Positions 3,226 to 63,242 of a stretch of DNA of 64,000 bases are shown here, piece after piece. The notes beneath the pieces were generated by a model that had not been told where the DNA came from, did not search any database, and was given only the letters and a program-made list of their open reading frames with translations. Location of the stretch: assembly GCA_013360915.1 (NCBI GenBank), contig JABWAT010000005.1, positions 1 through 64,000 on the forward strand, in the 5' to 3' direction. Position 1 is the first letter of the stretch. Every line of letters starts with the position of its first letter. Origin of the DNA: Bacteroidota bacterium (GTDB taxonomy: Bacteria > Bacteroidota > JABWAT01). Made by a program: the position numbers and the translations under genes.

Positions 3226-4083
3226 ATGATCCGCCCAGAACAGATTTTTTACCAGGGAGAGCCGGGAGCTTACAGCCAACTGGCCGCATGGTCGGTTTTC
3301 CCGGGAAGCAAGCCGGAAGGGCTGCCTGCCTTTGCCGATGTCTTCGACCGGCTGGCCACTGTGAAGGGGAACGTGGCAGCCGTCCTTCCCATTGAGAATT
3401 CCATTTACGGATCGGTTCACCCGGTCCTTGATCTCCTTCAAACCAATCCGTTTCCCATCGTTGGCGAATACAAACTGCGGATTCAGCATTGTCTGCTCGC
3501 CCATCCGTCCACGCCTGTATCTTCCATCCGTGAGGTGTATTCCCATCCGCAGGCACTGGGACAGTGTGAAAGCTTTTTCCGGCAGAATCCGCAGATGAAA
3601 CCCGTACCCTGGCCCGACACTGCCGGTGCTGCCCGGTATCTGGCCGACCATCCGGAGCTGACCACCACCGGTGCCATTGCCTCTGAACAGGCCGGATTGG
3701 AGTATAAACTGGCCGTCCTGCAGAAAAATATCGAAAGTTTCGATCATAATTTTACCCGTTTTGTGGTGGTCACCCCCCAACCGGAGCCGGTTCCTGATGC
3801 GAATAAAACGTCCATCTGGTTCGAGGCCAAGGATTTACCAGGAAGTCTGTATAACTGCCTCGGCTGTTTCGCCTCGAGAGAAATCAACCTGATTAAAATT
3901 GAAAACCGTCCCGTCTGGGGGAAAGCCTGGAAACAGATTTTTTATCTGGATATCACCGGCGGACTTCATCAGCCAGCCATCCGTGAAGCCATTGAAGAAC
4001 TTCATGCTTTCACCGAATCGGTTCACATTCTGGGTTCGTACCGTGAAGATCAATCCGAAAAAGGACATGTATCGGGCTTATGA
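3226..4083 (+). CDS. pheA: Prephenate dehydratase with ACT domain
   Basis: The 285-residue enzyme converts prephenate to phenylpyruvate in phenylalanine synthesis. Residues 1-185 form the dehydratase fold: an N-terminal QGEPGAYS, the PIENS loop near 55-59 and the catalytic TRF triplet at 177-179. Residues ~194-275 form the ACT regulatory domain, where ENRP at 226-229 stands for the phenylalanine-binding ESRP motif, so feedback inhibition is expected. There is no chorismate mutase part, so this is the monofunctional type. No clear ribosome site precedes the ATG. The stop overlaps the ftsX start by ATGA. Confidence 0.93.
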   Translation: MIRPEQIFYQGEPGAYSQLAAWSVFPGSKPEGLPAFADVFDRLATVKGNVAAVLPIENSIYGSVHPVLDLLQTNPFPIVGEYKLRIQHCLLAHPSTPVSSIREVYSHPQALGQCESFFRQNPQMKPVPWPDTAGAARYLADHPELTTTGAIASEQAGLEYKLAVLQKNIESFDHNFTRFVVVTPQPEPVPDANKTSIWFEAKDLPGSLYNCLGCFASREINLIKIENRPVWGKAWKQIFYLDITGGLHQPAIREAIEELHAFTESVHILGSYREDQSEKGHVSGL

Positions 4084-4955
4084 GTTTATCCTACATCATC
4101 CGTGAAAGTCTGTCGGGTTTTAAGCGGACCAAACTTTCCAGTTTCGTCAGCATTTCAACCATTACGCTCAGTCTGGTTCTGCTGGGCACCTTTCTGCTGC
4201 TGGCGGTCAATGCACAGAGACTGGTGACCGAACTTCGGGCACGACTCGAAATTGAAGTCTTTCTTGAAAAATCGGTCAAGCAGGATGAAATCAAGTCGAT
4301 CGGGGATTATCTCGGCGGAATCAAAGGGGTGAGGGAAACCCGTTTCATATCCCGCGAGGAAGCAGCGGCGATTTTTGAGCAGGAGTTCGGTGAGAATGTG
4401 TTCGACATTCTCGACACCAATCCGTTTCCGCCCAGTTTCCGCGTATTTGTCCGACCGGAATATGGGGTGATGGATTCGCTGATGCTGATTATTCCGCAGA
4501 TAAAAAAGCTGGCTGCTGTCACCGATGTGAATTTTAACGAACAGTACATTTCGGCCCTGGATAAAAATGCACGCATTCTGTGGGGACTCACAGCAGGCAT
4601 TGGCCTGATAGTGGGTCTGGCCTCAATTTTTCTGGTCAGCAACACCATCCGGCTGGCCATTTATTCACGTCGTTTTCTCATTCAGACCATGAAACTGGTG
4701 GGAGCAACGGCCGCCTTTATCAGAACCCCGTTTCTGATTGAAGGATTTCTGCAGGGGGTGCTGGGCGGTCTGATTTCCGGATTGACCATTTTCGGATTGC
4801 TCACCCTGACCGATCAGCGGATATTTCCCGTATTCCAGTACATCGTGTTGTCCCCTTCCTTTTTCCTGACTCTCATTGTGACCGGAGCAGTTTTTGGATT
4901 GCTGGGTTCTGTGATTTCGGTACGGAAATTTATTTCCATGAGGATCAGTGAATAA
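4080..4955 (+). CDS. ftsX: Cell division protein FtsX (permease-like)
   Basis: The 291-residue protein has the FtsX layout: one N-terminal membrane segment (~22-45), an extracytoplasmic domain (~46-165) holding the segment FRVFVRPE, then three membrane segments (~170-280). FtsX pairs with the ATPase FtsE and couples divisome activity to cell-wall hydrolases. No ftsE gene lies in the window, so the ATPase must be encoded elsewhere. The gene overlaps pheA by 4 bases and the following dipeptidase gene by 8, so the three are likely one transcript. Confidence 0.88.
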   Translation: MSLSYIIRESLSGFKRTKLSSFVSISTITLSLVLLGTFLLLAVNAQRLVTELRARLEIEVFLEKSVKQDEIKSIGDYLGGIKGVRETRFISREEAAAIFEQEFGENVFDILDTNPFPPSFRVFVRPEYGVMDSLMLIIPQIKKLAAVTDVNFNEQYISALDKNARILWGLTAGIGLIVGLASIFLVSNTIRLAIYSRRFLIQTMKLVGATAAFIRTPFLIEGFLQGVLGGLISGLTIFGLLTLTDQRIFPVFQYIVLSPSFFLTLIVTGAVFGLLGSVISVRKFISMRISE

Positions 4956-6015
4956 CCCGGTTTCCTTTGCCGACGCACACAATGATTTGCTTCAGCGGGC
5001 ACTGGCAGGTGATGCCATTCACCAGCGTTTACCCGATGGACATTCCGATTTTGTCAGAATACGTGAAGCCGGTGTGGTTTTACAGATTTTATCGGTCTGG
5101 GTTCCGGTCCGGTATGAACAGGAAGGAAAATCACCCGACCAGGCTCACCGTCTGATTGATGCCTTTGAAAAGTCCATCAGTCAGGCCTCCGATATTGCTG
5201 CCACCCGTTCTTCCCCGGGAAAAACCACTTACCTGCTTGGCATGGAAGGATCGCATCCTCTTGCAAGCGATCCACGTCAGGTGGAAGTGTTTCGTCGCCG
5301 CGGAATCCGGTATTTGTCTCCCACCTGGAACAACAGTGTCTCCTGGGCCACCAGTGCCCGCGATGAACATTCACCGGGGTTTTCCGGTCCGAAGGGACTA
5401 AGTGGGGCGGGTCGCGAAATGATTGCAGAATTTAACAGGGTTGGCATTGTTCCCGATGTGAGTCATGTGGGAGAAAGAACCTTCTGGGACATGATTGATG
5501 TGAGCAAAGGCCCCCTCATGGCCTCCCACTCGGCCTGCATGGCGCTGTGTTCCCATCCGAGAAACCTGACCGATGAACAGATCAGGGCCATTGCCATGAC
5601 CGGCGGGGTGGTCTGCATGAATTTTTTCAGTGGATTCCTGGATCCCTCCTATTTCACCCGCCGGAATGAACGGCTGACGTCCATCCGGGCTGAGCGGAAA
5701 GGACCGGTTGAGTCCGATTTCCCGAACTACGAAGCTTTTTTCACTCACGAGGACCGTTGGATCGGCCGTGAAGTGGCCGACCTGAGACCCTCCATTGATC
5801 TCCTTACCGACCACATTCTTCATGCCCTGCGGATTGCTGGAGAAGACCATGTGGCTCTCGGCAGCGACTTTGATGGAATCGAAACAGCACCTGCCGGTAT
5901 GGAGTCCGTTCTGGATCTTCAGAAAATTCCCGGCCTGCTCAAGGAACGGGGGCTTAGTGACCAGACCATCTCAAAAATCTGTTCGAAAAACCTGATCCGG
6001 CTTTTCACGGACTGA
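4948..6015 (+). CDS. Membrane dipeptidase family M19 (renal dipeptidase-like)
   Basis: The 355-residue protein keeps the binuclear zinc ligands of the M19 family: H11 and D13 in ADAHND, the bridging E100 in MEGSH, H173 in DVSH, H194 in ASHSA and D307 in GSDFDG. Family members cleave dipeptides, often with a D-residue at the C-terminal side. No signal peptide is seen, so it is probably cytoplasmic. The start is a GTG overlapping the ftsX end by 8 bases, with GAGG at 4940-4943. The length is normal for the family. The physiological substrate cannot be deduced; recycling of wall peptides would fit the ftsX neighbour but is a guess. Confidence 0.9.
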   Translation: MNNPVSFADAHNDLLQRALAGDAIHQRLPDGHSDFVRIREAGVVLQILSVWVPVRYEQEGKSPDQAHRLIDAFEKSISQASDIAATRSSPGKTTYLLGMEGSHPLASDPRQVEVFRRRGIRYLSPTWNNSVSWATSARDEHSPGFSGPKGLSGAGREMIAEFNRVGIVPDVSHVGERTFWDMIDVSKGPLMASHSACMALCSHPRNLTDEQIRAIAMTGGVVCMNFFSGFLDPSYFTRRNERLTSIRAERKGPVESDFPNYEAFFTHEDRWIGREVADLRPSIDLLTDHILHALRIAGEDHVALGSDFDGIETAPAGMESVLDLQKIPGLLKERGLSDQTISKICSKNLIRLFTD

Positions 6016-6047
6016 TCAAAACAATCTTATCCACACCGGAGCGCCAC

Positions 6048-8747
6048 ATGAAATACATCACTCTTTTTCTGGCTGGTATATTCATGAGTCCGGTTGCGGC
6101 CCATTCACAATCCACCGGTAATCTTGGAACCCTCAATTTCTGGAATGCGACCAGCACCACCTGGACCGGTTCGTTTACGGGGGCCACTCTTCGTATCCGG
6201 TCGGTGAGTGATTCCATTTTTCAGATTGCCTATGATGACGGGGCAGACGCACCCACCGTCATGATTCAGACACCGCTTGCTGAAGGCCCAGACCTGACGG
6301 TGACCGAACTGGCCGACCGGATCACCCTGAATAACGGAACCCTCCGGATCGACGTGGCGCTTCCCGGCGGACTGCTGACTTTTCTCCGGTCCGATGGGTT
6401 GCTCATTACCAGCGAATCATCGTCCAGCCCGTATTCCAAATCAGGAGATATCACCCGGTTCACTTTTACTGAAGGCCCGGGACAGGTGTTTGGATTCGGG
6501 GAAAAAGGCATGTCCCTTAACCGGAAGGGACAATTTTTCGATACCTATAACCGGGCCAATTACGGATATTCCTCTGCGCTGAAAACCATGAAAGTAAACA
6601 TCCCGCTGATGACCACCACCGAGGGATATGGTGTCTTTTTTGACTCATCCTATCCGGCGAATGTCGACCTGCGTTCCGGTTACAGTTACCAATCCCTTGG
6701 CGGACCCATGGTGTTTTATTTCTTCACTGGTGATCTGCGTGCACAAATTCGGCATTATTATCAGCTAACCGGCTTCCAACCCCTTCCTCCACGTTGGGCA
6801 TTGGGATTTATTCAGTCCAAATATGGCTATCAGAATGAAACGGAAGTCAGGCAGATTGCATCCACCTTCCGGTCGAAGAACATTCCGGCCGATGCCATTG
6901 TTCTCGATTTATACTGGTTTGGCCAGGAAAATAAAATGGGAGATCTGCAGTGGGATCTGAACCGGTTTCCCGATCCTGCAGGAATGGTGGCCGATCTTCT
7001 TGATGATGGATTCCGGGTGATTCCCATACAGGAAACCTACTTTGTCAACGGAACACGCCTGTACAGCCTGTTCTCGGCATACGTGGGGAAAAAACCTGCC
7101 GGCGGGGCTTATACGTTCGGATTCTGGGCCGGCGATGCCCGGTTGTTCGATGTCACCCATGCGAGCGCGCCGCATTTGTGGTGGTCTCAATCCAAGGCCA
7201 TCATGGAATCGGGAATTGCCGGCTGGTGGACCGATCTGGGTGAACCGGAGACCCATCCTTCCGACATGATTCATGCCGGCGGAAGTGCTGCCAAAGTTCA
7301 TAACATTTACAATCTGATCTGGGCGAAAATTCTCTGGGACGGATTTAACAAGGACTATCCCGGAAAACGGTTTTTTAATCTGACCCGGTCGGGAACGGGT
7401 GGCATGCAACGGTTTGCCACCTTCCCCTGGTCGGGCGATGTGGACCGGTCTTTTGACGGACTTAGTCTTCAGCCCGGGATCATGCTGGGCATGTCCCTTT
7501 CAGGAATCGGATATGAGCATTCCGATCTGGGCGGATTTGCCGGGTCCCCCGCTTCGGCTGAATTGTACACCCGTTGGATGCAATTCGGTGCGTTTACAGG
7601 AATCATGCGTGCTCACACCTCCCATCAGAATCATGAGCCGTGGGCTTTCGGTTTGGTTACCGAACGCATCACCGGTAACTACATCAGAATCCGTCACCGG
7701 CTGAATCCCTATTTCTACACCGCCGCCTGGAATCATTCCATCCACGGTGAATTGCCCATCAGGCCGTTGCTGCTCGATTTTCCCGATCTGCCGGGTGTTT
7801 CTGACCGGACAGACGCATTTTTCTTTGGTCCTTCCCTGCTGGTAATGCCCGTTCTGCAACCGGATGTTACCTCGGTTAACACCGACCTTCCTTCGGGGAC
7901 CTGGTACGATTTTTATTATCCGAATGCCGTCGTTCCGGCCGGTTTTCAGACCTTGGCCGCACCCTTGCAACAGATTCCGGTACTGGTTCGCGGCGGATCG
8001 GTCATTCCTCAGCGACCCGATGGCCGGACGGTGGCAGATGAATGGGGCGATACCCTGCTTCTCAGCGTCTTCCCGGACCGGGAAACCGGGCTGGCTTCCG
8101 GCTCCCTGATAGAAGACGACGGTCTCACCACCCAATCTCTTGCCGGTGAACGTCTGGAAACCCGGTTCCTCTGGGAGGAAACCCGGACCGATTCCATGAC
8201 CGCACAGTTGACCTCGGTGATCTCGGGAACCGGATATCCATCCCTTCCAGGATCACGGATGACTCATATCCGGGTGGCCCGCCATGGATCCTGGACCCGG
8301 GTTCAATCGGGAACCACCCATCTTCCCTACATCGCCGATTCAACCCTATGGGCACAAAGCAACGAACCCGCCTGGACTCAAACCAGCACCCATGGTATGA
8401 TCCGTACAACCGGCACTCCCTTTTCACCCCTGAATCTTTCCATCAGAGGTTCCCTTTACACATCAGTCCGTTCCGAACAACCGGCTGACTGGTCATTGGG
8501 AACGTTGTATCCCAACCCATTCAATCCGTCTGTGAACATTCCGGTAACCATTGCATCGCCCGGATCCCTGCGCCTCGTCGTACACAATGTATTGGGTCAG
8601 CAGGTGGCAGAAAAAATCTTTGTTTTTACAGTTGCCGGACCTCAAACCCTTTCATGGGAACCTCATCAGTTAACCTCGGGGCTGTATCACCTCACATTTA
8701 TCAACGGATCAAAGCGTGAAACCCGCCGGGCGGTCTATCTGAAGTAA
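6048..8747 (+). CDS. Secreted glycoside hydrolase family 31 enzyme with T9SS sorting domain
   Basis: The 899-residue protein starts with a signal peptide (~1-20). It has a beta-rich N-terminal domain (~25-240) and a GH31 catalytic barrel (~245-590). The nucleophile D396 lies in GWWTDLGEPE and the acid/base D464 in FPWSGD. Further beta domains follow, and a T9SS type A sorting domain closes it (YPNPFNPSVNI to the end). GH31 enzymes are retaining alpha-glycosidases, mostly alpha-glucosidases or alpha-xylosidases; which one this is cannot be read from the motifs. It should act at the cell surface or outside. The receptor-like kinase gene begins 3 bases after its stop. Confidence 0.92.
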   Translation: MKYITLFLAGIFMSPVAAHSQSTGNLGTLNFWNATSTTWTGSFTGATLRIRSVSDSIFQIAYDDGADAPTVMIQTPLAEGPDLTVTELADRITLNNGTLRIDVALPGGLLTFLRSDGLLITSESSSSPYSKSGDITRFTFTEGPGQVFGFGEKGMSLNRKGQFFDTYNRANYGYSSALKTMKVNIPLMTTTEGYGVFFDSSYPANVDLRSGYSYQSLGGPMVFYFFTGDLRAQIRHYYQLTGFQPLPPRWALGFIQSKYGYQNETEVRQIASTFRSKNIPADAIVLDLYWFGQENKMGDLQWDLNRFPDPAGMVADLLDDGFRVIPIQETYFVNGTRLYSLFSAYVGKKPAGGAYTFGFWAGDARLFDVTHASAPHLWWSQSKAIMESGIAGWWTDLGEPETHPSDMIHAGGSAAKVHNIYNLIWAKILWDGFNKDYPGKRFFNLTRSGTGGMQRFATFPWSGDVDRSFDGLSLQPGIMLGMSLSGIGYEHSDLGGFAGSPASAELYTRWMQFGAFTGIMRAHTSHQNHEPWAFGLVTERITGNYIRIRHRLNPYFYTAAWNHSIHGELPIRPLLLDFPDLPGVSDRTDAFFFGPSLLVMPVLQPDVTSVNTDLPSGTWYDFYYPNAVVPAGFQTLAAPLQQIPVLVRGGSVIPQRPDGRTVADEWGDTLLLSVFPDRETGLASGSLIEDDGLTTQSLAGERLETRFLWEETRTDSMTAQLTSVISGTGYPSLPGSRMTHIRVARHGSWTRVQSGTTHLPYIADSTLWAQSNEPAWTQTSTHGMIRTTGTPFSPLNLSIRGSLYTSVRSEQPADWSLGTLYPNPFNPSVNIPVTIASPGSLRLVVHNVLGQQVAEKIFVFTVAGPQTLSWEPHQLTSGLYHLTFINGSKRETRRAVYLK

Positions 8748-8750
8748 CGC

Positions 8751-11700
8751 ATGAAACGCCAGCCACTGCTTTTTCCCTTTCTGCTCATCCCTTTCCTGCT
8801 GCAGGGGCAGGAACTGATTCCGTTTTTCGAACAGAAGGCGACCAATGTGGCTCAGGTGATGTCAACTCCCGATGGCGACCGGTGGGCTGCCGTCCGTGGG
8901 GCCGGATTCGAAACGGCCGGCGGATTTTACCGCTACCGAAACGGATCCTGGTCGGTTTCCATGGCGTTCCCTTACTCAGATTCCCCGCTGCTGAAAGTCT
9001 TCTCTCCCCGGTCGGTTTACGGACTTCACCACGAAACCCACTTCGGTCATTGGCGGTATTTGTTTTATCACTTCGATGGCAGTCACTGGACCCGTCAGGA
9101 CATTCCGCTGAAAAAGTGGGACGCCACGGATTATGTGATTATTCACTCCATGGATGGCAGGTCAGAGGCAGATTTGTGGCTGGTTGGTCAGAAGGCCACC
9201 GTACTCAGGCGGGTCAACGGAAACTGGGTGCCGGTGCGGTCTCCGGTGATCTGGAAAGAAGGGGAAGATGACTTTGCCAAGGATTTCCTGTCGGTCCTTA
9301 CCGGCCGGAATGGCTACGTCTGGGTCGGTGGAAAAAACGGCATTCTGATCCGCTTTAACGGGTCAGAAGGAACCAGTATTCCGCTTCCCATCCGGTCAGC
9401 CGTGGTCTCCCTGGCCGAAGATGAAACCGGGTTGCTCTGGATCGGAACCGATAAAGGTGAGGTGATCACCTGGGATGGCACCCGATTCAACCCGGTACCT
9501 TCACCCGCTGGTGAAAAACGGATCCAGCAGATGATCAGCCGGTTGAATGGCTTGTTTGTCCTTTCCGGCGACCAGATTTTTCAATGGGATCCTTCAAGGC
9601 TGGCATGGTCCGCCCGCATGAATCTGACCGAACCCGGTGTTCCCATCACCTCATTTGATCTGGTCAATCCTGCCGATACAACCAGCGGATTCATCATCGG
9701 AACCACCACAGGACTGTTTGGAACGACGACCCGCGGAACCGTGAGCTTTCGTGATGTGACCAGTGCCTCGGCCATCTCTGCAAAGGCTCGCGGCGGATTT
9801 TTCCTCCAGGCCAATGACGATACCCACCCAGACCTGTACCTGACCGGGGAGCCCGGACTCCCCGACCAGTTGCTGATCAATACCGGAACCGGTCCGTTCA
9901 CCGACCAGACCTATGAACGCGGACTTCTGGTTTCGAGCAACGGATCGCTGGCCGGAACGGCAGGCGATATCGACGGCGATGGAGATCAGGATCTGTTGGT
10001 TATCCGGCACACCGATCACAAAGTCTCTGTTTTCAGAAACCGTGATCAGATCCGGTTCGATGACATCACCGGTTGGTCCGGTCTCGATGCCATGAACGTT
10101 CCGGAACCGGAAACTTTCTGGGGCCACAGCATCCGGCTGCTCGATGCCGATCTGGATGGTGATCAGGATCTGTTTGTTTCATCCTGGGAAGCCGGGATTC
10201 AATGGTTTCAGAATGATGGTGTCGGGCGGTTTACACCCGGTGATTCAACCCTTTTCCAGGCATTGAATCAATTGGATAACCACCGGTTGATGGGATGGGT
10301 TTTGCTTCCCGGAACGAAGGAAGGTCTGGCCAGCCTGGTTGCGGTAACCGATAACGCCGGAACCTTTCTTTTCACCCTGTCACGTCCGGGTTTCAGCCTT
10401 CAGTCTGTTCGCCAGCATCCATCGCTGAAAAGCATTTCTGTCAATATTCTGACTCTCCCCGATACCGGTGAGCCGGTTCTTTTTCTTCCTGACCGGAATC
10501 TGGTCAATCGCATTGCCAGAGTTTCGGGGGATTCGCTGGTGGTCTCCTCCATTCCGGTCCGGATACCCTCCATACCAGCCTTTCCGGGATTTCCAGGTGG
10601 GTTCTGTCTGATTACCGATGCCGATGGAGACGGGGCGGATGATATTCTTTTTGGCAGTCATCTGCTCAGATGGGATGGTTCACGATGGGTGAGTGTGAAG
10701 GAAACAAGTGGTCTGACCCTCGATGGAAATTCCATAACAGGCGATGCCGATTCGGATGGAGACCCCGATCTGGTATTGTGCAGAGGGAGTGAGTTTGGAG
10801 CCTATCCGGTTACATTTTACCGGAATGAAGGAAAACCTGCGGCCGTCAGTCGTCTGTTTCTGACTGGTCTGAGTGATCCTGGTTTTCAGGTCAGCATAGA
10901 AACTGCCGATTCCGTTGGTAAACCGTTCCGGGTAAACGGCTGGTCGGGACAAACCGCTTTATCAACCGTGACCGCCATGCCGCTTGTTGTTCCGGTCGCT
11001 TCCGGTCGACAGGCCACGGTCACCGGACCGGGCGGAAATTCATGGTCCGGAAGGTTGTCTGGTCCGATGACAACTATTCAGGTCAACCCGGCAGGCAACG
11101 GGATCCTGCCAGAAGCCATCGTGAGTCCGCTCATCCGGACCTGGCTTTATCTTTCTTTGTGGCAGGAACTCTTGAAACTGCTGTTTATCGGGACCGGGCT
11201 CTGGTTTCTGAACCAGCGGAGCAACCTGACCGGCTGGATCGGGTATGCCCGTCAATGGTGGGCCTGGATACCGGGAGTTGTGCTGTACTGGGTGCTTTTC
11301 CTGAGAACCGCTCAGCATCCGCTGGCCGTTCATTTACTGGGTCCGGTTGCCGGGTCACTGCTTCTCTGGACATTAATTGCCACCGTTGTTTATTTCTGGG
11401 TCACCTACCTGCGGACTTCCCGAATCGGACCATACCGGTTGGGAAGGCTTCTGGGCGAAGGATCGAGCGGTAAAGTCTGGGAAGCCTGGAGCACCTCGGA
11501 CCGGAAACCCGTTGCCATCAAAGTCTTTCACGACCGGGCTTTCGATACCTCAGAAGGTCAGATCCGGTTTCAGCGGGAAGTGGCGGCAGGAACGGCTCTT
11601 TCTCATCCTGCCATTGTTAAAATTTTCGGTCAGGGTGTACATGGCCGGCAACGGTATCTGGTCATGGAACTGGTTGAAGGAGAGAACCTGCGTGCATGGC

Positions 11701-12230
11701 TGACCCGGGACGTGTCGCCGGGTCAGGTCGTTCGGTGGCTTGCCGATCTGTGTGAGGCGATTCAGGTTCTTCACGATGCCGGCATGATTCACCGCGACAT
11801 CAAGACCGAAAACATCATGATCAGTCCGGATGGGCATCCCAAAATCATGGATCTTGGCTTGGCAAAAGCGGCGGTTTTCGCCACCATGACCCGCCTTGGA
11901 ACCAGTGTGGGAACCCTGGCCTACATGTCGCCGCAGCAGGCTGTTGGGATGCCGCTCGATGCCACCGCCGATGTGTATTCGTTGGGTGTGGTCGGTTATG
12001 AACTGCTTACAGGCGGTACCTTGCCGGTGACCGGTGATCATGACATGGCCTTTGTTTACAATATTTTTAATCAGGTGCCGGTTCCCCCTTCGGTCTATAA
12101 CCATCTGGTTGACTCCGACCTCGATTCCATTATCATGAAATGTCTGGCCAAACAACCTGGTGACCGGTGGGCCAGTGCACAGGAAGCCGGGAATGCATTC
12201 GGCAACTGGCTGAAGACCTCAGCTGAATAA
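8751..12230 (+). CDS. Receptor-like Ser/Thr protein kinase with propeller and FG-GAP-like repeats
   Basis: The 1159-residue protein has a signal peptide (1-20), then a large extracytoplasmic part. Residues ~20-390 contain propeller-like repeats such as LLWIGTDKGEVITW. At least four calcium-loop FG-GAP/VCBS-like motifs follow (DIDGDGDQDL ~402, DADLDGDQDL ~465, DADGDGADDI ~622, DADSDGDPDL ~664). Three membrane segments span ~795-885. A cytoplasmic kinase domain occupies ~892-1155: glycine loop GEGSSGKV, lysine ~924 in VAIKVF, HRDIKTEN with D1016, and DLG (for DFG) at ~1034. All core catalytic residues are present. Most bacterial kinases of this class carry the kinase domain at the N-terminus; here the order is reversed. 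The ligand and substrates are unknown. Confidence 0.88.
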   Translation: MKRQPLLFPFLLIPFLLQGQELIPFFEQKATNVAQVMSTPDGDRWAAVRGAGFETAGGFYRYRNGSWSVSMAFPYSDSPLLKVFSPRSVYGLHHETHFGHWRYLFYHFDGSHWTRQDIPLKKWDATDYVIIHSMDGRSEADLWLVGQKATVLRRVNGNWVPVRSPVIWKEGEDDFAKDFLSVLTGRNGYVWVGGKNGILIRFNGSEGTSIPLPIRSAVVSLAEDETGLLWIGTDKGEVITWDGTRFNPVPSPAGEKRIQQMISRLNGLFVLSGDQIFQWDPSRLAWSARMNLTEPGVPITSFDLVNPADTTSGFIIGTTTGLFGTTTRGTVSFRDVTSASAISAKARGGFFLQANDDTHPDLYLTGEPGLPDQLLINTGTGPFTDQTYERGLLVSSNGSLAGTAGDIDGDGDQDLLVIRHTDHKVSVFRNRDQIRFDDITGWSGLDAMNVPEPETFWGHSIRLLDADLDGDQDLFVSSWEAGIQWFQNDGVGRFTPGDSTLFQALNQLDNHRLMGWVLLPGTKEGLASLVAVTDNAGTFLFTLSRPGFSLQSVRQHPSLKSISVNILTLPDTGEPVLFLPDRNLVNRIARVSGDSLVVSSIPVRIPSIPAFPGFPGGFCLITDADGDGADDILFGSHLLRWDGSRWVSVKETSGLTLDGNSITGDADSDGDPDLVLCRGSEFGAYPVTFYRNEGKPAAVSRLFLTGLSDPGFQVSIETADSVGKPFRVNGWSGQTALSTVTAMPLVVPVASGRQATVTGPGGNSWSGRLSGPMTTIQVNPAGNGILPEAIVSPLIRTWLYLSLWQELLKLLFIGTGLWFLNQRSNLTGWIGYARQWWAWIPGVVLYWVLFLRTAQHPLAVHLLGPVAGSLLLWTLIATVVYFWVTYLRTSRIGPYRLGRLLGEGSSGKVWEAWSTSDRKPVAIKVFHDRAFDTSEGQIRFQREVAAGTALSHPAIVKIFGQGVHGRQRYLVMELVEGENLRAWLTRDVSPGQVVRWLADLCEAIQVLHDAGMIHRDIKTENIMISPDGHPKIMDLGLAKAAVFATMTRLGTSVGTLAYMSPQQAVGMPLDATADVYSLGVVGYELLTGGTLPVTGDHDMAFVYNIFNQVPVPPSVYNHLVDSDLDSIIMKCLAKQPGDRWASAQEAGNAFGNWLKTSAE

Positions 12231-12285: not shown

Positions 12286-12975
12286 TCAGGGATTTGGTAT
12301 CAGTTTATATCCGATTCCGTGAATCGTAATGATGTTTTTCGGATGTGCTGGATCTTCTTCCATCTTCTGCCGGATTTTCAGAATGAAATTATCCACGGTC
12401 CGGCTGCTGATGGAATCATCATATCCCCACACGTTGGTCAGCAGATCATCACGGCTGACTGTCTGGTTCCGGCGTTCCCACAGGTATTTCAGTACTTCCA
12501 CTTCCTTGGGAGTCATTGGAATGTTTTCACCGTTGCGGGTAGCTGCGTAATTCGAGAAATCCACCACCAGAAGTCCGATGGTCACCGGGGCCATCACATT
12601 GCCGGTAAGCGGAACCTGACGCCGTAACACAGCCTTTACACGGGCCATCAGTTCACGCAGGCTGAATGGCTTGGTCATGTAATCGTCAGCACCCAGTTCA
12701 AGACCGAGGACCTTATCAATTTCATCTGCCTTGGCAGTCAGCATGATAATCGGGGTGGAATTTCCTTCGAGACGAACCCGGCGAAGCACATCAAAACCCG
12801 ATAAACCCGGTAACATCACATCCAGAATAACCAGATCGAAGTCGCCTTTCTTGATATGATCGTACCCGTCGGTGCCAGTCAGGGCCAATTGGACCTGATA
12901 CCCTTCCATTTCGAGGTTGTCCTTCAGACCAAGGGCAAGCTGGGCTTCGTCTTCAATAATAAGAATCTTACTCAT
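12286..12975 (-). CDS. OmpR/PhoB-family response regulator
   Basis: The 229-residue protein has a receiver domain (1-120) with the acidic pocket E8/D9, phospho-acceptor D52 in LVILDVMLPG and a TKPF lysine motif. It is joined to a winged-helix DNA-binding domain (~135-229; MTPKEVEVLKYLWE and a SSRTVDNFILKIRQK recognition region). The histidine kinase gene lies 95 bases upstream on the same strand, so the two form a cognate pair. AGGA before the ATG supports the start. The signal and target genes are unknown. Confidence 0.93.
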   Translation of the reverse strand: MSKILIIEDEAQLALGLKDNLEMEGYQVQLALTGTDGYDHIKKGDFDLVILDVMLPGLSGFDVLRRVRLEGNSTPIIMLTAKADEIDKVLGLELGADDYMTKPFSLRELMARVKAVLRRQVPLTGNVMAPVTIGLLVVDFSNYAATRNGENIPMTPKEVEVLKYLWERRNQTVSRDDLLTNVWGYDDSISSRTVDNFILKIRQKMEEDPAHPKNIITIHGIGYKLIPNP

Positions 12976-13070: not shown

Positions 13071-14609
13071 TTAACTCTCTTTTGCAGCAGGAATCCAGAT
13101 GGTGAAAACCGATCCTTTACCCACAGCACTTTCCAATTCAATGATGCCATCGTGATGGTTGATGATGTGAGTGGTAATGGCCAGTCCCAGGCCCGATCCC
13201 TTCGATTCATGAACCAGTCCGCTGGAAATCCGGAAAAATTTGTCAAAAACCTGACGGTGGTATTTCTGATCGATACCGATCCCTCGGTCTTCCACCCGGA
13301 TTCCCACCAGTCCCCCTTTCCTGATTGTTTCGATCCGGAGGTACTTGCGGTCACGGCTGTATTTAATGGCGTTGTCGATCAGGTTGTTCACGGCTTCACC
13401 AAGTGCATCGGCATCGGCCAGGACTCTGGGCACCGGATTCAGGATCACATCGGCCTGAAAACCATCCTGTTCGATCTGCAGCTGATAAGGCTCCAAAACC
13501 CGACGCACAATTTCGCCCACATCTACCAGGGTTTTCCGGTAGGTGGGTTTGACACTTTCCGTGCGCGAAAAATTCAGGATGTTATTGATCAGCCGGCTCA
13601 ACCGCTCCGTTTCTGTCAGAATTATGCGGTAATATTCTTTCTTGCGGTTTTCGTCGGTGGTCCGGTTCATACTCAGGGTTTCGGCATACATCCGGATCAG
13701 GGCCAGCGGGGTTCGCAATTCATGTGACACGTTCGAGACGAAATCGGTTTTTAACCGGACCAGATCCATTTCCTGCCGGATGTAACGGAATACAATAAAA
13801 ATCCCCACCAGAACCAGGACACCCAGCACGGTGATGATGGAAATATTCAGGATCAGCCGGTTACCCAGCCAATCATCAATGGCCCGGTTTTTAAAACGGA
13901 TTCCCACCTGATATTCCGGAATAATCCACAAAGGCTTAGAGACCCTGAATCCGCCGGGGTCAGAATCAGAAGTGGAGAAAATCAGCGTTCCACCATCGCG
14001 GTACTGTATACCAAGGTCATACTGTTCACCAGAAATTTCATTCAGCCGCGGACGGAGTATGTTTCTGATTAACTGATAGCCGTCAATGGTCAGGGCAGCC
14101 AGTTTCTTACCCGACCCGGGAGAATCGAACAGAAAGACAATGGCAATCAGCGGATCACGGACATCCGGTTTTGATAAGCGGATGGGAAGTAATTTGCGGT
14201 ATCCGGTTTTCAGAAAGGAATACAGTTGCCTGATGCTTTCCGGGCGTCTCTTGAGACTATCCAGAATAACCGCGTTGGGTTCATAGAAGGTGGATCTCGC
14301 AGTCACCGTGCGGACGTTCACCCAGCTCGTATCCATATACAGAATCGAGTGAACAGCCGGATGGTTATTCAGAAAAAACCGCAATGCCCGCTCTTCGCCG
14401 GGCGGAATGCGTGCCACGTCATTGGCCCAATTATCCACCGCGCTCCAGGCATACTGATTCAGATTCAGGAGGACGGCCGCCAACTGCTCATCATACAGGT
14501 CCTTCAGAATCACTTCGTTACTGCTCAGGGTGTTGGCAAGATACCCGATATAGAGCAGAACCGGCAGGATGACCGAGGCGATAAACCAGAGTGTGATGCG
14601 TTTGATCAT
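13071..14609 (-). CDS. Membrane sensor histidine kinase
   Basis: From the ATG at 14609 the product is 512 residues. A membrane segment (~6-25) and an extracytoplasmic sensor region (~26-240) are followed by a second membrane segment (~247-270). Then come a HisKA domain with NVSHELRTP (phospho-histidine near 296) and a HATPase domain with NLIDNAIKYS, DRGIGI and GSGLGLAI motifs. The frame extends to a TTG at 14624, but the ATG leaves a clean gap to the divergent glycosyltransferase gene. It should phosphorylate the response regulator encoded 95 bases downstream. The sensor part matches no domain I can name. Confidence 0.9.
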   Translation of the reverse strand: MIKRITLWFIASVILPVLLYIGYLANTLSSNEVILKDLYDEQLAAVLLNLNQYAWSAVDNWANDVARIPPGEERALRFFLNNHPAVHSILYMDTSWVNVRTVTARSTFYEPNAVILDSLKRRPESIRQLYSFLKTGYRKLLPIRLSKPDVRDPLIAIVFLFDSPGSGKKLAALTIDGYQLIRNILRPRLNEISGEQYDLGIQYRDGGTLIFSTSDSDPGGFRVSKPLWIIPEYQVGIRFKNRAIDDWLGNRLILNISIITVLGVLVLVGIFIVFRYIRQEMDLVRLKTDFVSNVSHELRTPLALIRMYAETLSMNRTTDENRKKEYYRIILTETERLSRLINNILNFSRTESVKPTYRKTLVDVGEIVRRVLEPYQLQIEQDGFQADVILNPVPRVLADADALGEAVNNLIDNAIKYSRDRKYLRIETIRKGGLVGIRVEDRGIGIDQKYHRQVFDKFFRISSGLVHESKGSGLGLAITTHIINHHDGIIELESAVGKGSVFTIWIPAAKES

Positions 14610-14721
14610 GATGTTGTTGTGCAAATATCATGAAATAGTCTGGCCATTCACATCCTGCCTGTCTTCGCCTTTCCGGATTTCATGTATGATATTTACGTTT
14701 TTTAATGGGTGGCCATCCGGA

Positions 14722-59804: not shown

Positions 59805-62800
59805 ATGGGAAACCACCAAACATCCCTGTCAGACATCCTGTCAGGATCCATACAACCATTTCGCTCACAGTTAAATTCCTACCGGATTCTGTCGGCGATT
59901 GCAATCGGAGTCTTGCTGATTGGTTGGCTTCTGCATGAGAGTTATGACAATCCCGGTGTCAATCCGGTTATCCTCCGGTTACTTCTTATCGGTGCTTTCA
60001 CCCTGTTTCTGACCGGCACACTGATTTCCCGGTACATACAATCCCGTGCTGCTTTTTATTTTCCGATTCTTCTGGTTTTTCTGAATGCCTGGATATTATA
60101 TCTCGTTCTGATTAACGGATTCCGAATTCAGTTTCTTCCCGGACTGGTTTTTTCTGTGATGCTCACCAGTGCCGTTTTTCAGAATTTCCGGTATCTGACT
60201 GTATACATCGGAGGCCTCACCCTTTTTCTGGTCCCGGGAGCTGCCCTGGCCCCTCAGACAGCCACCAATCAATTTATTTTTATAACGGTGGTTCTGATTG
60301 TTTTTATTGGCATTTACCTGATTCTGTATCTGAGAACCTTCACCAATGAACGGTTTGGTCTTCGCACCGAAATCTTCTCATCCATTTTTATGGATTCAGA
60401 TGCGGCCCTGTTGCTGTTAAATCCAGATAACGGAGAAATCGGATATGTGAATTCGAAGGCCTATGATCTTTTTCATTTGCCCGAAGCCTATTTCAGCCAG
60501 GGTCCGGTGCCCTTCAGTCAGCTTGTTCCTGTTCCGCTCGATCCACAGGCACCCAATCAGTTTTATGAAGTCAGACTGAGCACATTTGATGGCAGTTTGT
60601 TCTGGGGTGACATTTCGGTCAAACCATTCCGAACGGCCAACAGCCGGTTTATTCTTGTCAGAATAATGGATGCCACTCTGCGGAAAGGAGCAGAAGAAGC
60701 AGCCGAACGAATGACTGCCCAACGCAGACGGCTTCTCGATATTGCCCGATCCCTTTTAAACACGCTCAGCCTGGATGATGTGTTTAAAACCATCACCGAT
60801 GCCCTTTCCACTGTGGTCCGTTACAACCTGATTGTTTTGTACTGGCAGGAACCTGGCAGTAAAATCCTGCGTCCGCTTGCCAGCCGGGCCATTGACTGGA
60901 AAGGATATGATCCCGATCAGTTTGTGATTCCGGAGGGACAAGGCATTGCCGGACGTGTGGTGGTGACCGATGAAATTGTGATGATCAATAATTCTCACCT
61001 GGATCCTGAAAGTTTTTATCCATCGGGATATGATCCGGGTGAAGAACACATCATTGCCATTCCGGTAAAAGTCTCCGGAAAAAATGTCGCAGCTTTTTCG
61101 GTTATCCGCACCGGTCCGGTTCCCTTTTCCCCTGATGATTTTGAACTCATCCAATTGCTGGTCACTCACTCCATTTCTGCTATTCAGAACAGCGTTCTGC
61201 ATGAAGAATTCAGACGACGGGCCCGGCACAGCGAATCGCTTGTCCAGGTTACCAAGGCCATTAATTCCACCATGAAGCAGGAAGAATTGCTCGACCTGAT
61301 TGTTGAAAAAGTGCTTGAACTGATTGAAGCCCGTCATGGAGCCCTGTTTCTGCTCGACCCGCAATCGGGCCGGTTATCGGTTGGGGCAAGCCGCGGAATC
61401 GACACGTCCATTATTCCAAGGCTTCAATTTGGCCCCGGTGATTCCATCGCCGGCTGGGTGGCACAAACCGGCCGGGGCGTCATGATTCATGATGTGGAAA
61501 AACATCCGCGTTTTCAGGTGGTGGATCAGAATGAAGTGTTTACCTCCATGATTTCAATACCGCTTAAAATCAAGGACTTGGTGGTGGGAGTCCTCGGTGT
61601 TGACCGGATGGCTGGTGAAAAATACTTTACCGAGAGGGAATTCAATATAGCCTGTGATTTTGCCGAACAGGCCGCCCTGGCCATGGAAAATTCCAGGCTG
61701 TTTAATCAGATCGGGGTTTCTGAAAAGAAATATCGGTCCCTGTTCGAGGAAATAGATGATGCTGTTTTCATCGCTTCCACCGAAGGATTTATTCTGGATA
61801 TCAATCCGGCCGGTTACCAGATGTTCGGGTATACTTCAGCCGCAGACATGTTCAAAGTCAATATCTGGGAAGATTTGTGTATTGACAAAGCCAACCGGGA
61901 TGTTTTTCTGAAAAACCTTTCGCGTATCGGCAATGTTAAGAATTTTGAAATCACCATGAAACGGAAGGATGGCACCGCAATCACCGTTCTGCATTCCTCC
62001 AGCCTGGTAAAAGGTCAGGATGGTGAGGTGCTCTATCTGCAGGGAACGATTAAAGATATCACCGAACAGCGCCGGTTTCAGCAGCAGTTGTTTCAATCAC
62101 AGAAGATGGAATCGATCGGGCAGCTTGCCGGCGGGATGGCTCATGATTTTAATAACATCCTGTCAGGAATCATGGGCTATGCCAGTTTTATCCGCAATCA
62201 AATGGATCCTGACCATCCGCAATTCCGGTACGTGTCGGCCATCGAACAGGCTGCAAACCGCGCAGCCGACCTGATTTCTCAGCTGCTTGCATTTGCCCGC
62301 GGTACCAGTGCCAATAAAATTCCGACACAGATCAACAAAATAATTTCGGATACGCTTCATATTATAGAACGAACCTTCGAAAAACAGGTTACTATCCGGA
62401 CTGATTTTGACGCGGATTTACCGCTGATCATGGGAGATCCTGTTCAGCTACAGCAGGTTTTTCTGAATCTGTGTGTGAATGCAAGAGATGCCGTCCGGGG
62501 AAAAGGAACCATTGTAATCACCACACTCCGCAAAACCATTTTTGCCGATCCTCAGATCCCGGAAGTCAACCCCGGAGAATATGTCATCATTACCGTAACC
62601 GACAATGGAATGGGAATGACAGAGGATGTCAGGAAACGGATTTTCGAACCGTTTTTCACCACCAAGGAAGTCGGAAAAGGAACGGGCCTGGGCCTGGCCA
62701 TGGCCTATGGCGTGGTGAAGAGTCACTCCGGATTTATTCAGGTTCGTTCGGCTCCCGGCGAGGGATCGACCTTTTCGGTATTTCTGCCTGCCCATGTGGC

Positions 62801-63242
62801 CGGGGGAAATGAACCGGCCGATTCAGTTGAGGTGCAGACACAGAATACTCAGGCTGTTCATGACGGATCAGGAGCCAGCATTCTGGTGGTGGATGACGAT
62901 CCTTCCATCCGTGGTCTTATTTCGGATATCCTCACCCACTACCACTACCATATCCTTCATGCAGGAAACGGACTGGAAGCCATTCAGATGATGGACCAGC
63001 ACGGATCGGGAATCCGGTTGATCATTCTCGATATTATGATGCCGCAGATGAATGGAGTGGAGGGTTACTTTGAAATTATTCAGAAGTTTCCCGACGTGAA
63101 AGTCATTTTCTCGAGCGGATACTCACAAACCGATCTGCTGGATGGAATCCTGAAGGAGAAAAGTGTCCGATTTCTCCCGAAACCGTATCATGTCAAGGAC
63201 TTGCTTGATATGGTCAACAGCATGATGGAATCCCCTTCATAG
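59805..63242 (+). CDS. Hybrid sensor histidine kinase (MASE-like membrane part, GAF and PAS domains, receiver)
   Basis: The 1145-residue protein has about six membrane segments (~30-185), a PAS domain (~195-290), two GAF domains (~310-470 and ~485-630) and a second PAS domain (~640-760). A HisKA domain with H780 in [10 protein letters not shown], a HATPase domain and a C-terminal receiver with D1076 in LIILDIMMP follow. The ILSGIMGY H-box places it in the family whose first partner is its own receiver. What the GAF or PAS domains bind cannot be told. Its last 6 bases overlap the convergent DJ-1 gene. Confidence 0.93.

Follow-up and report, generated by a model that had tools for sequence, protein, structure and literature searches.

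The window analysed here, a stretch of 64,000 nucleotides from a Bacteroidota contig, encodes a Ser/Thr kinase whose catalytic domain stands at the C-terminus, behind a large exported sensor, and whose gene starts 3 bp past the stop codon of a GH31 glycosidase gene. This arrangement raises the question of what such a receptor perceives and on which protein it acts. The preliminary description of the locus had suggested that the ectodomain might sense a glycan or the product of the glycosidase. Our analysis points elsewhere: the protein is probably a receptor Ser/Thr kinase of the inner membrane that shares the layout of a two-component sensor and feeds a transcriptional regulator. The receptor architecture itself is well supported; its parts and neighbours are listed in Table 1.

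The signal peptide proposed earlier corresponds to a hydrophobic sequence at residues 5-26, and two distant relatives possess, by eye, lipobox-like N-termini (LFISC, ITSC), likewise an export signal. The predicted extracytoplasmic sensor of ~780 residues was also recovered, with Pfam matches to Reg_prop (weak; residues 217-234, 8e-5) and FG-GAP_3 (best stretch at residues 406-476, 1.1e-13) and with four Ca-type motifs. Among 17 sensor homologues, FG-GAP_3 was found in all, PSII_BNR/YCF48 in ten and UnbV_ASPIC in nine; the window protein itself gave no UnbV_ASPIC match, and its ASPIC/UnbV-like domain is a prediction. An ectodomain profile from a 17-row alignment matched CRTAC1 (E 1.3e-31), Ycf48 structures (E ~1e-10) and integrin alpha-V among PDB sequences. 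The model of residues 21-788, built from the same alignment, reached a pLDDT of 77.4 and a pTM of 0.63, with values mostly of 80-95 over the first ~260 residues of the N-terminal propeller and low confidence in the ASPIC/UnbV part, its weakest region. Foldseek placed the periplasmic sensors BT4663 (1.8e-17) and BT4673 (9.7e-17) on top and also retrieved murine CRTAC1 (9etn, 3.1e-15, target TM 0.62); the long alignments to sensors of hybrid two-component systems (HTCS) have an rmsd of ~18-23. Because both profile and fold match CRTAC1 and the periplasmic sensors of HTCS, the ectodomain is predicted to face the periplasm, the protein residing in the inner membrane of a member of a diderm phylum. 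The sensor once described as outward-facing is thus extracytoplasmic, as stated, but should be called periplasmic. A cytoplasmic FG-GAP part is disfavoured by the signal sequence, the lipobox-like starts in the two relatives and the positive charges that come after the last transmembrane (TM) helix.

Three membrane segments had been proposed, and the full-length AlphaFold model, built from a 13-row alignment and of moderate confidence (mean pLDDT 73.7, pTM 0.49), has helices at 803-823, 829-853 and 858-889. Hydropathy at the threshold used flagged only the last of them (857-889) in the window protein; relatives with three flagged segments back the three-helix block. In a Foldseek search with the full model, the 50 matches listed were all to kinases.

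Judged by its fold and by the Lys, Glu, HRD and DFG-type Asp residues, the C-terminal domain is a Hanks-type kinase, 34-38% identical to PknB in the structure-search matches. The glycine-loop residues G902, G904 and G907, together with K924, E943, HRD 1014-1016, K1018, N1021 and D1034 (DLG), are all present, both in the sequence and as invariant columns. The sole departure is in the APE motif, where the conserved Glu is replaced by Gln (MSPQQ) in the window protein and its three close homologues. With the core catalytic residues kept, as the preliminary description had it, the domain looks active. It is the single Pkinase match at E <= 1e-15 in the window's genome.

Table 1 Features of the receptor kinase locus and of response regulator genes beside sensor-histidine kinases (L146-L150: coordinates within each locus)
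Feature	Position	Strand	Remarks
Same-strand genes for prephenate dehydratase, FtsX-like protein, M19 dipeptidase and GH31, then the kinase gene	3226-8747	+	
GH31 glycosidase gene	6048..8747	+	signal sequence; T9SS-tail match below cut-off
Receptor Ser/Thr kinase gene	8751..12230	+	1159 aa, no internal stops
Signal peptide, residues ~1-20	8751..8810	+	hydropathy
N-terminal beta-propeller, Ycf48/Reg_prop-like, residues ~30-335	8838..9755	+	Reg_prop, PSII_BNR/YCF48 and Ycf48 profile matches
FG-GAP propeller, residues ~336-705	9756..10865	+	FG-GAP_3; CRTAC1 and integrin alpha-V profile matches
Ca-type loop 1, D406-D414	9966..9992	+	DIDGDG at 406; D406, D410, D414 invariant in 13 homologues
Ca-type loop 2, D465-D473	10143..10169	+	DADLDG at 465; D465, D469, G470, D473 invariant in 13 homologues
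Ca-type loop 3, D623-D631	10617..10643	+	DADGDG at 623; D623, D627, G628, D631 invariant in 13 homologues
Ca-type loop 4, D665-D673	10743..10769	+	DADSDG at 665; D665, D669, D673 invariant in 13 homologues
ASPIC/UnbV-like domain (predicted), residues ~706-785	10866..11105	+	alignment to homologues
Three transmembrane helices, within residues 803-886	11157..11408	+	AlphaFold model helices
Hanks-type kinase domain, residues 895-1143	11433..12179	+	Pkinase (PF00069) 1.1e-44; nearest solved structures PknB
OmpR-type response regulator	12286..12975	-	convergent neighbour; orthologous neighbour in 2/3 close relatives
Histidine kinase of OmpR-type regulator	13071..14624	-	at most ~11 kb from receptor kinase in 4/4 window-family genomes
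L146 response regulator	7132-7776	+	after histidine kinase 3792-7094
L148 response regulator	7424-8056	+	after histidine kinase 3987-7364
L149 response regulator	4859-5488	-	beyond histidine kinase 5687-9100
L150 response regulator	7763-9151	+	after histidine kinase 4243-7761

The full architecture is present in 13 of 395 genomes of the phylum, and its 13 full-length members are spread across four families, the window's family accounting for four members and three further families for the other nine; in one further count, for the family of G115, a sensor match was obtained in 20/79 genomes, fragments and a partial match in G412 included. The kinase is C-terminal in all 13 members, while most other kinases retrieved from the phylum carry it N-terminally, so the reversed order noted at the outset is real. 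It is, however, not unique, as Reg_prop-Y_Y_Y-TM-kinase proteins (L070 and relatives) of the same phylum also end in a Hanks kinase of the same catalytic clade; these differ in their Reg_prop and Y_Y_Y ectodomain and in having one TM flagged ahead of the kinase. In the catalytic-domain tree, all 16 C-terminal receptor kinase domains formed one group against 26 other kinases (support 99/95), the latter being a non-random sample taken from similarity-search loci, with two long-branch kinases omitted. The Reg_prop-Y_Y_Y kinases fall inside this group, and a grouping of f1 and the distant members without the Reg_prop type was rejected (AU p 0.0014). In the sample analysed, the C-terminal receptor kinase domains therefore form a single clade. 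Other kinase frames of ~1000-1300 aa in relatives have, by eye, the kinase first or early, never C-terminal. Receptor-type C-terminal kinases were also seen in L142 (8776-11595), L143 (7990-10764) and L144 (6056-8827). The L142 copy (as L070) combines Reg_prop and Y_Y_Y in its ectodomain, so that this catalytic clade carries two types of ectodomain. A plasmid search gave no record spanning 80% of the query, and the ten matches listed were kinase-domain matches. Among the titles and abstracts listed by searches of an open-licence library, none described the architecture of the window protein.

Among known systems, the HTCS of Bacteroidota, represented by the periplasmic domains of BT4663 and BT4673, likewise have a propeller-type ectodomain joined through a membrane block to a kinase in the cytoplasm. 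The output of the window protein is instead a Hanks Ser/Thr kinase without receiver or DNA-binding domain, its second propeller is of the FG-GAP type with an ASPIC/UnbV-like end, and it has three TM helices. Where HTCS show Reg_prop propellers with Y_Y_Y, we found one weak Reg_prop and no Y_Y_Y match, so that the likeness is one of fold; where they show a histidine kinase, receiver and HTH, the C-terminus matched Pkinase-type models alone. PknB and PknD, the PASTA and propeller kinases, are likewise transmembrane Ser/Thr kinases with an extracytoplasmic sensor, but the window protein has the reversed domain order, three TM helices and no PASTA, and it scored 247 bits against a cut-off of 450 with the PknB_PASTA_kin model (NF033483) for PASTA kinases (PknB/Stk1). 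Cartilage acidic protein 1 (CRTAC1) has an FG-GAP propeller followed by ASPIC/UnbV, the order predicted here, and lacks a kinase; the window protein has in addition an N-terminal propeller, the membrane block and the kinase. A kinase-less CRTAC1-like protein of 577 aa, with FG-GAP and UnbV_ASPIC, is found in the window's genome as well (L107, 1757-3490); its match to a T9SS sorting tail is below the cut-off.

The same sensor is also found on histidine kinases. The FG-GAP/TM block recurs in five proteins (L102-L106) that terminate in HATPase, four of them with HisKA_3, and their profile matches extend from the sensor into the TM block. In the sensor tree the histidine kinase and Ser/Thr kinase types split with support of 100/99. 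Four of the five loci have a co-oriented response regulator gene downstream; three of these regulators comprise a receiver and a LuxR HTH and the fourth a receiver and a sigma-54 domain (NtrC type). The fifth locus (L147) has no ORF in the ~0.7 kb remaining before the contig end.

Beside the receptor Ser/Thr kinase, each of the nine distant members has a same-strand downstream gene for a GAF/sigma-54 activator of ~577 aa. Gaps between the two genes, measured in seven, are -1, 2, 2, 8, 9, 112 and 728 bp; in G223 the activator adjoins the kinase and is cut by the contig end, and in G034 it lies ~4.4 kb away. Ten genomes fetched later as a test all possess the activator on the same strand (58-89% identity), close to the kinase in eight and at ~2.6-2.9 kb in two, although these ten belong to one family, so that related lineages rather than independent events are counted. 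Overall, the activator is within 0.8 kb of the kinase in 16/19 genomes. It consists of GAF, sigma-54 AAA+ (GAFTGA motif intact) and HTH domains, and the seven activators scanned gave no receiver match. This activator is the likely target of the kinase in the relatives. The window and three close relatives have no activator gene adjacent to the kinase. Identity to the kinase-linked activators is 37-38% for the best match in the window's genome, a candidate orthologue at G000:C19:34911-36317 with no kinase match in the surrounding 15 kb. In four relatives (L138, L139, L140 and L141) a separate ~530-aa N-terminal kinase adjoins a GAF/sigma-54 activator; its Pfam domains, checked in L138, are kinase and PEGA. 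Given that this sensor sits on a histidine kinase in some relatives, and that others pair the Ser/Thr kinase with a sigma-54 activator, the receptor kinase resembles a two-component sensor in which a eukaryote-type kinase has been substituted. At somewhat short of even chances, this amounts to a distinct phospho-signalling design: a receiver-less GAF/sigma-54 activator would be under the control of a receptor Hanks kinase whose periplasmic sensor is of the two-component type, and the pair would replace a histidine kinase and response regulator.

It was this activator, and not a glycosidase, that emerged as the conserved neighbour when the same architecture was followed into distant relatives. 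The 3-bp spacing, the several same-strand genes ahead of the kinase and the glycan-sensing nature of the HTCS ectodomains that top the fold matches would suit a glycan sensor that detects the product or substrate of the upstream GH31 and controls its operon, but we regard this as very improbable. GH31 adjoins the kinase in the window alone among the 13 family genomes, a comparison of neighbourhoods across the 13 loci showed, in the other 12, at most a match to the C-terminal tail of GH31, and PF01055 was undetected in six of the genomes (G030, G034, G069, G123, G263 and G326). The T9SS-like tail would, moreover, separate GH31 from a periplasmic sensor by the outer membrane. With synteny confined to the window and the family undetected in 6/13 genomes, the partnership was dropped; the adjacency is lineage-specific and is weak evidence for function. 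The profile matches to CRTAC1 and integrin alpha-V would agree with a role in adhesion or matrix binding, as in those proteins, with the kinase reporting contact with a surface or another cell. The predicted periplasmic location speaks against it, and the use of the same sensor to drive histidine kinases with response regulators fits ligand sensing, which makes such a role highly unlikely.

Some Hanks kinases phosphorylate Ser/Thr on response regulators, and in the window's lineage the kinase might act in this way on the adjoining OmpR-type regulator. The convergent pair adjoins the kinase in three of the four window-family genomes (window, L028 and L030; regulator ~75% identical), and in the fourth the histidine kinase is ~11 kb from the receptor kinase. 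This route is nevertheless unlikely: genes in convergent orientation do not share a transcript, the regulator is already served by a histidine kinase of its own, and general local synteny could account for the adjacency. Counting against the receptor reading itself, PP2C_2, the phosphatase family searched, was not found in 9/13 family genomes, the window's included; the Gln in the APE motif and the lack of an adjacent activator in the window's lineage weigh the same way. The window further encodes a BlaR1-type M56 peptidase fused to TonB C-terminal domains (861-2531) and a 1145-aa GAF/PAS hybrid histidine kinase with a receiver (59805-63242).

For the receptor feeding a transcriptional regulator, we propose that the Sec-exported periplasmic ectodomain, with its Ycf48/Reg_prop-like, Ca-type FG-GAP and ASPIC/UnbV-like parts, would bind a periplasmic ligand, that the conserved three-helix membrane block would relay the signal to the cytoplasmic Hanks kinase, and that the kinase would phosphorylate Ser/Thr on a transcriptional regulator, in the relatives likely the downstream GAF/sigma-54 activator. 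One periplasmic sensor with its membrane block is combined with kinases of two kinds, histidine and Ser/Thr, and one clade of C-terminal receptor kinases is joined to two ectodomain types. If the pairing with the activator is functional, it would represent a Ser/Thr kinase replacing a two-component system, a testable case with a substrate predicted from gene order.
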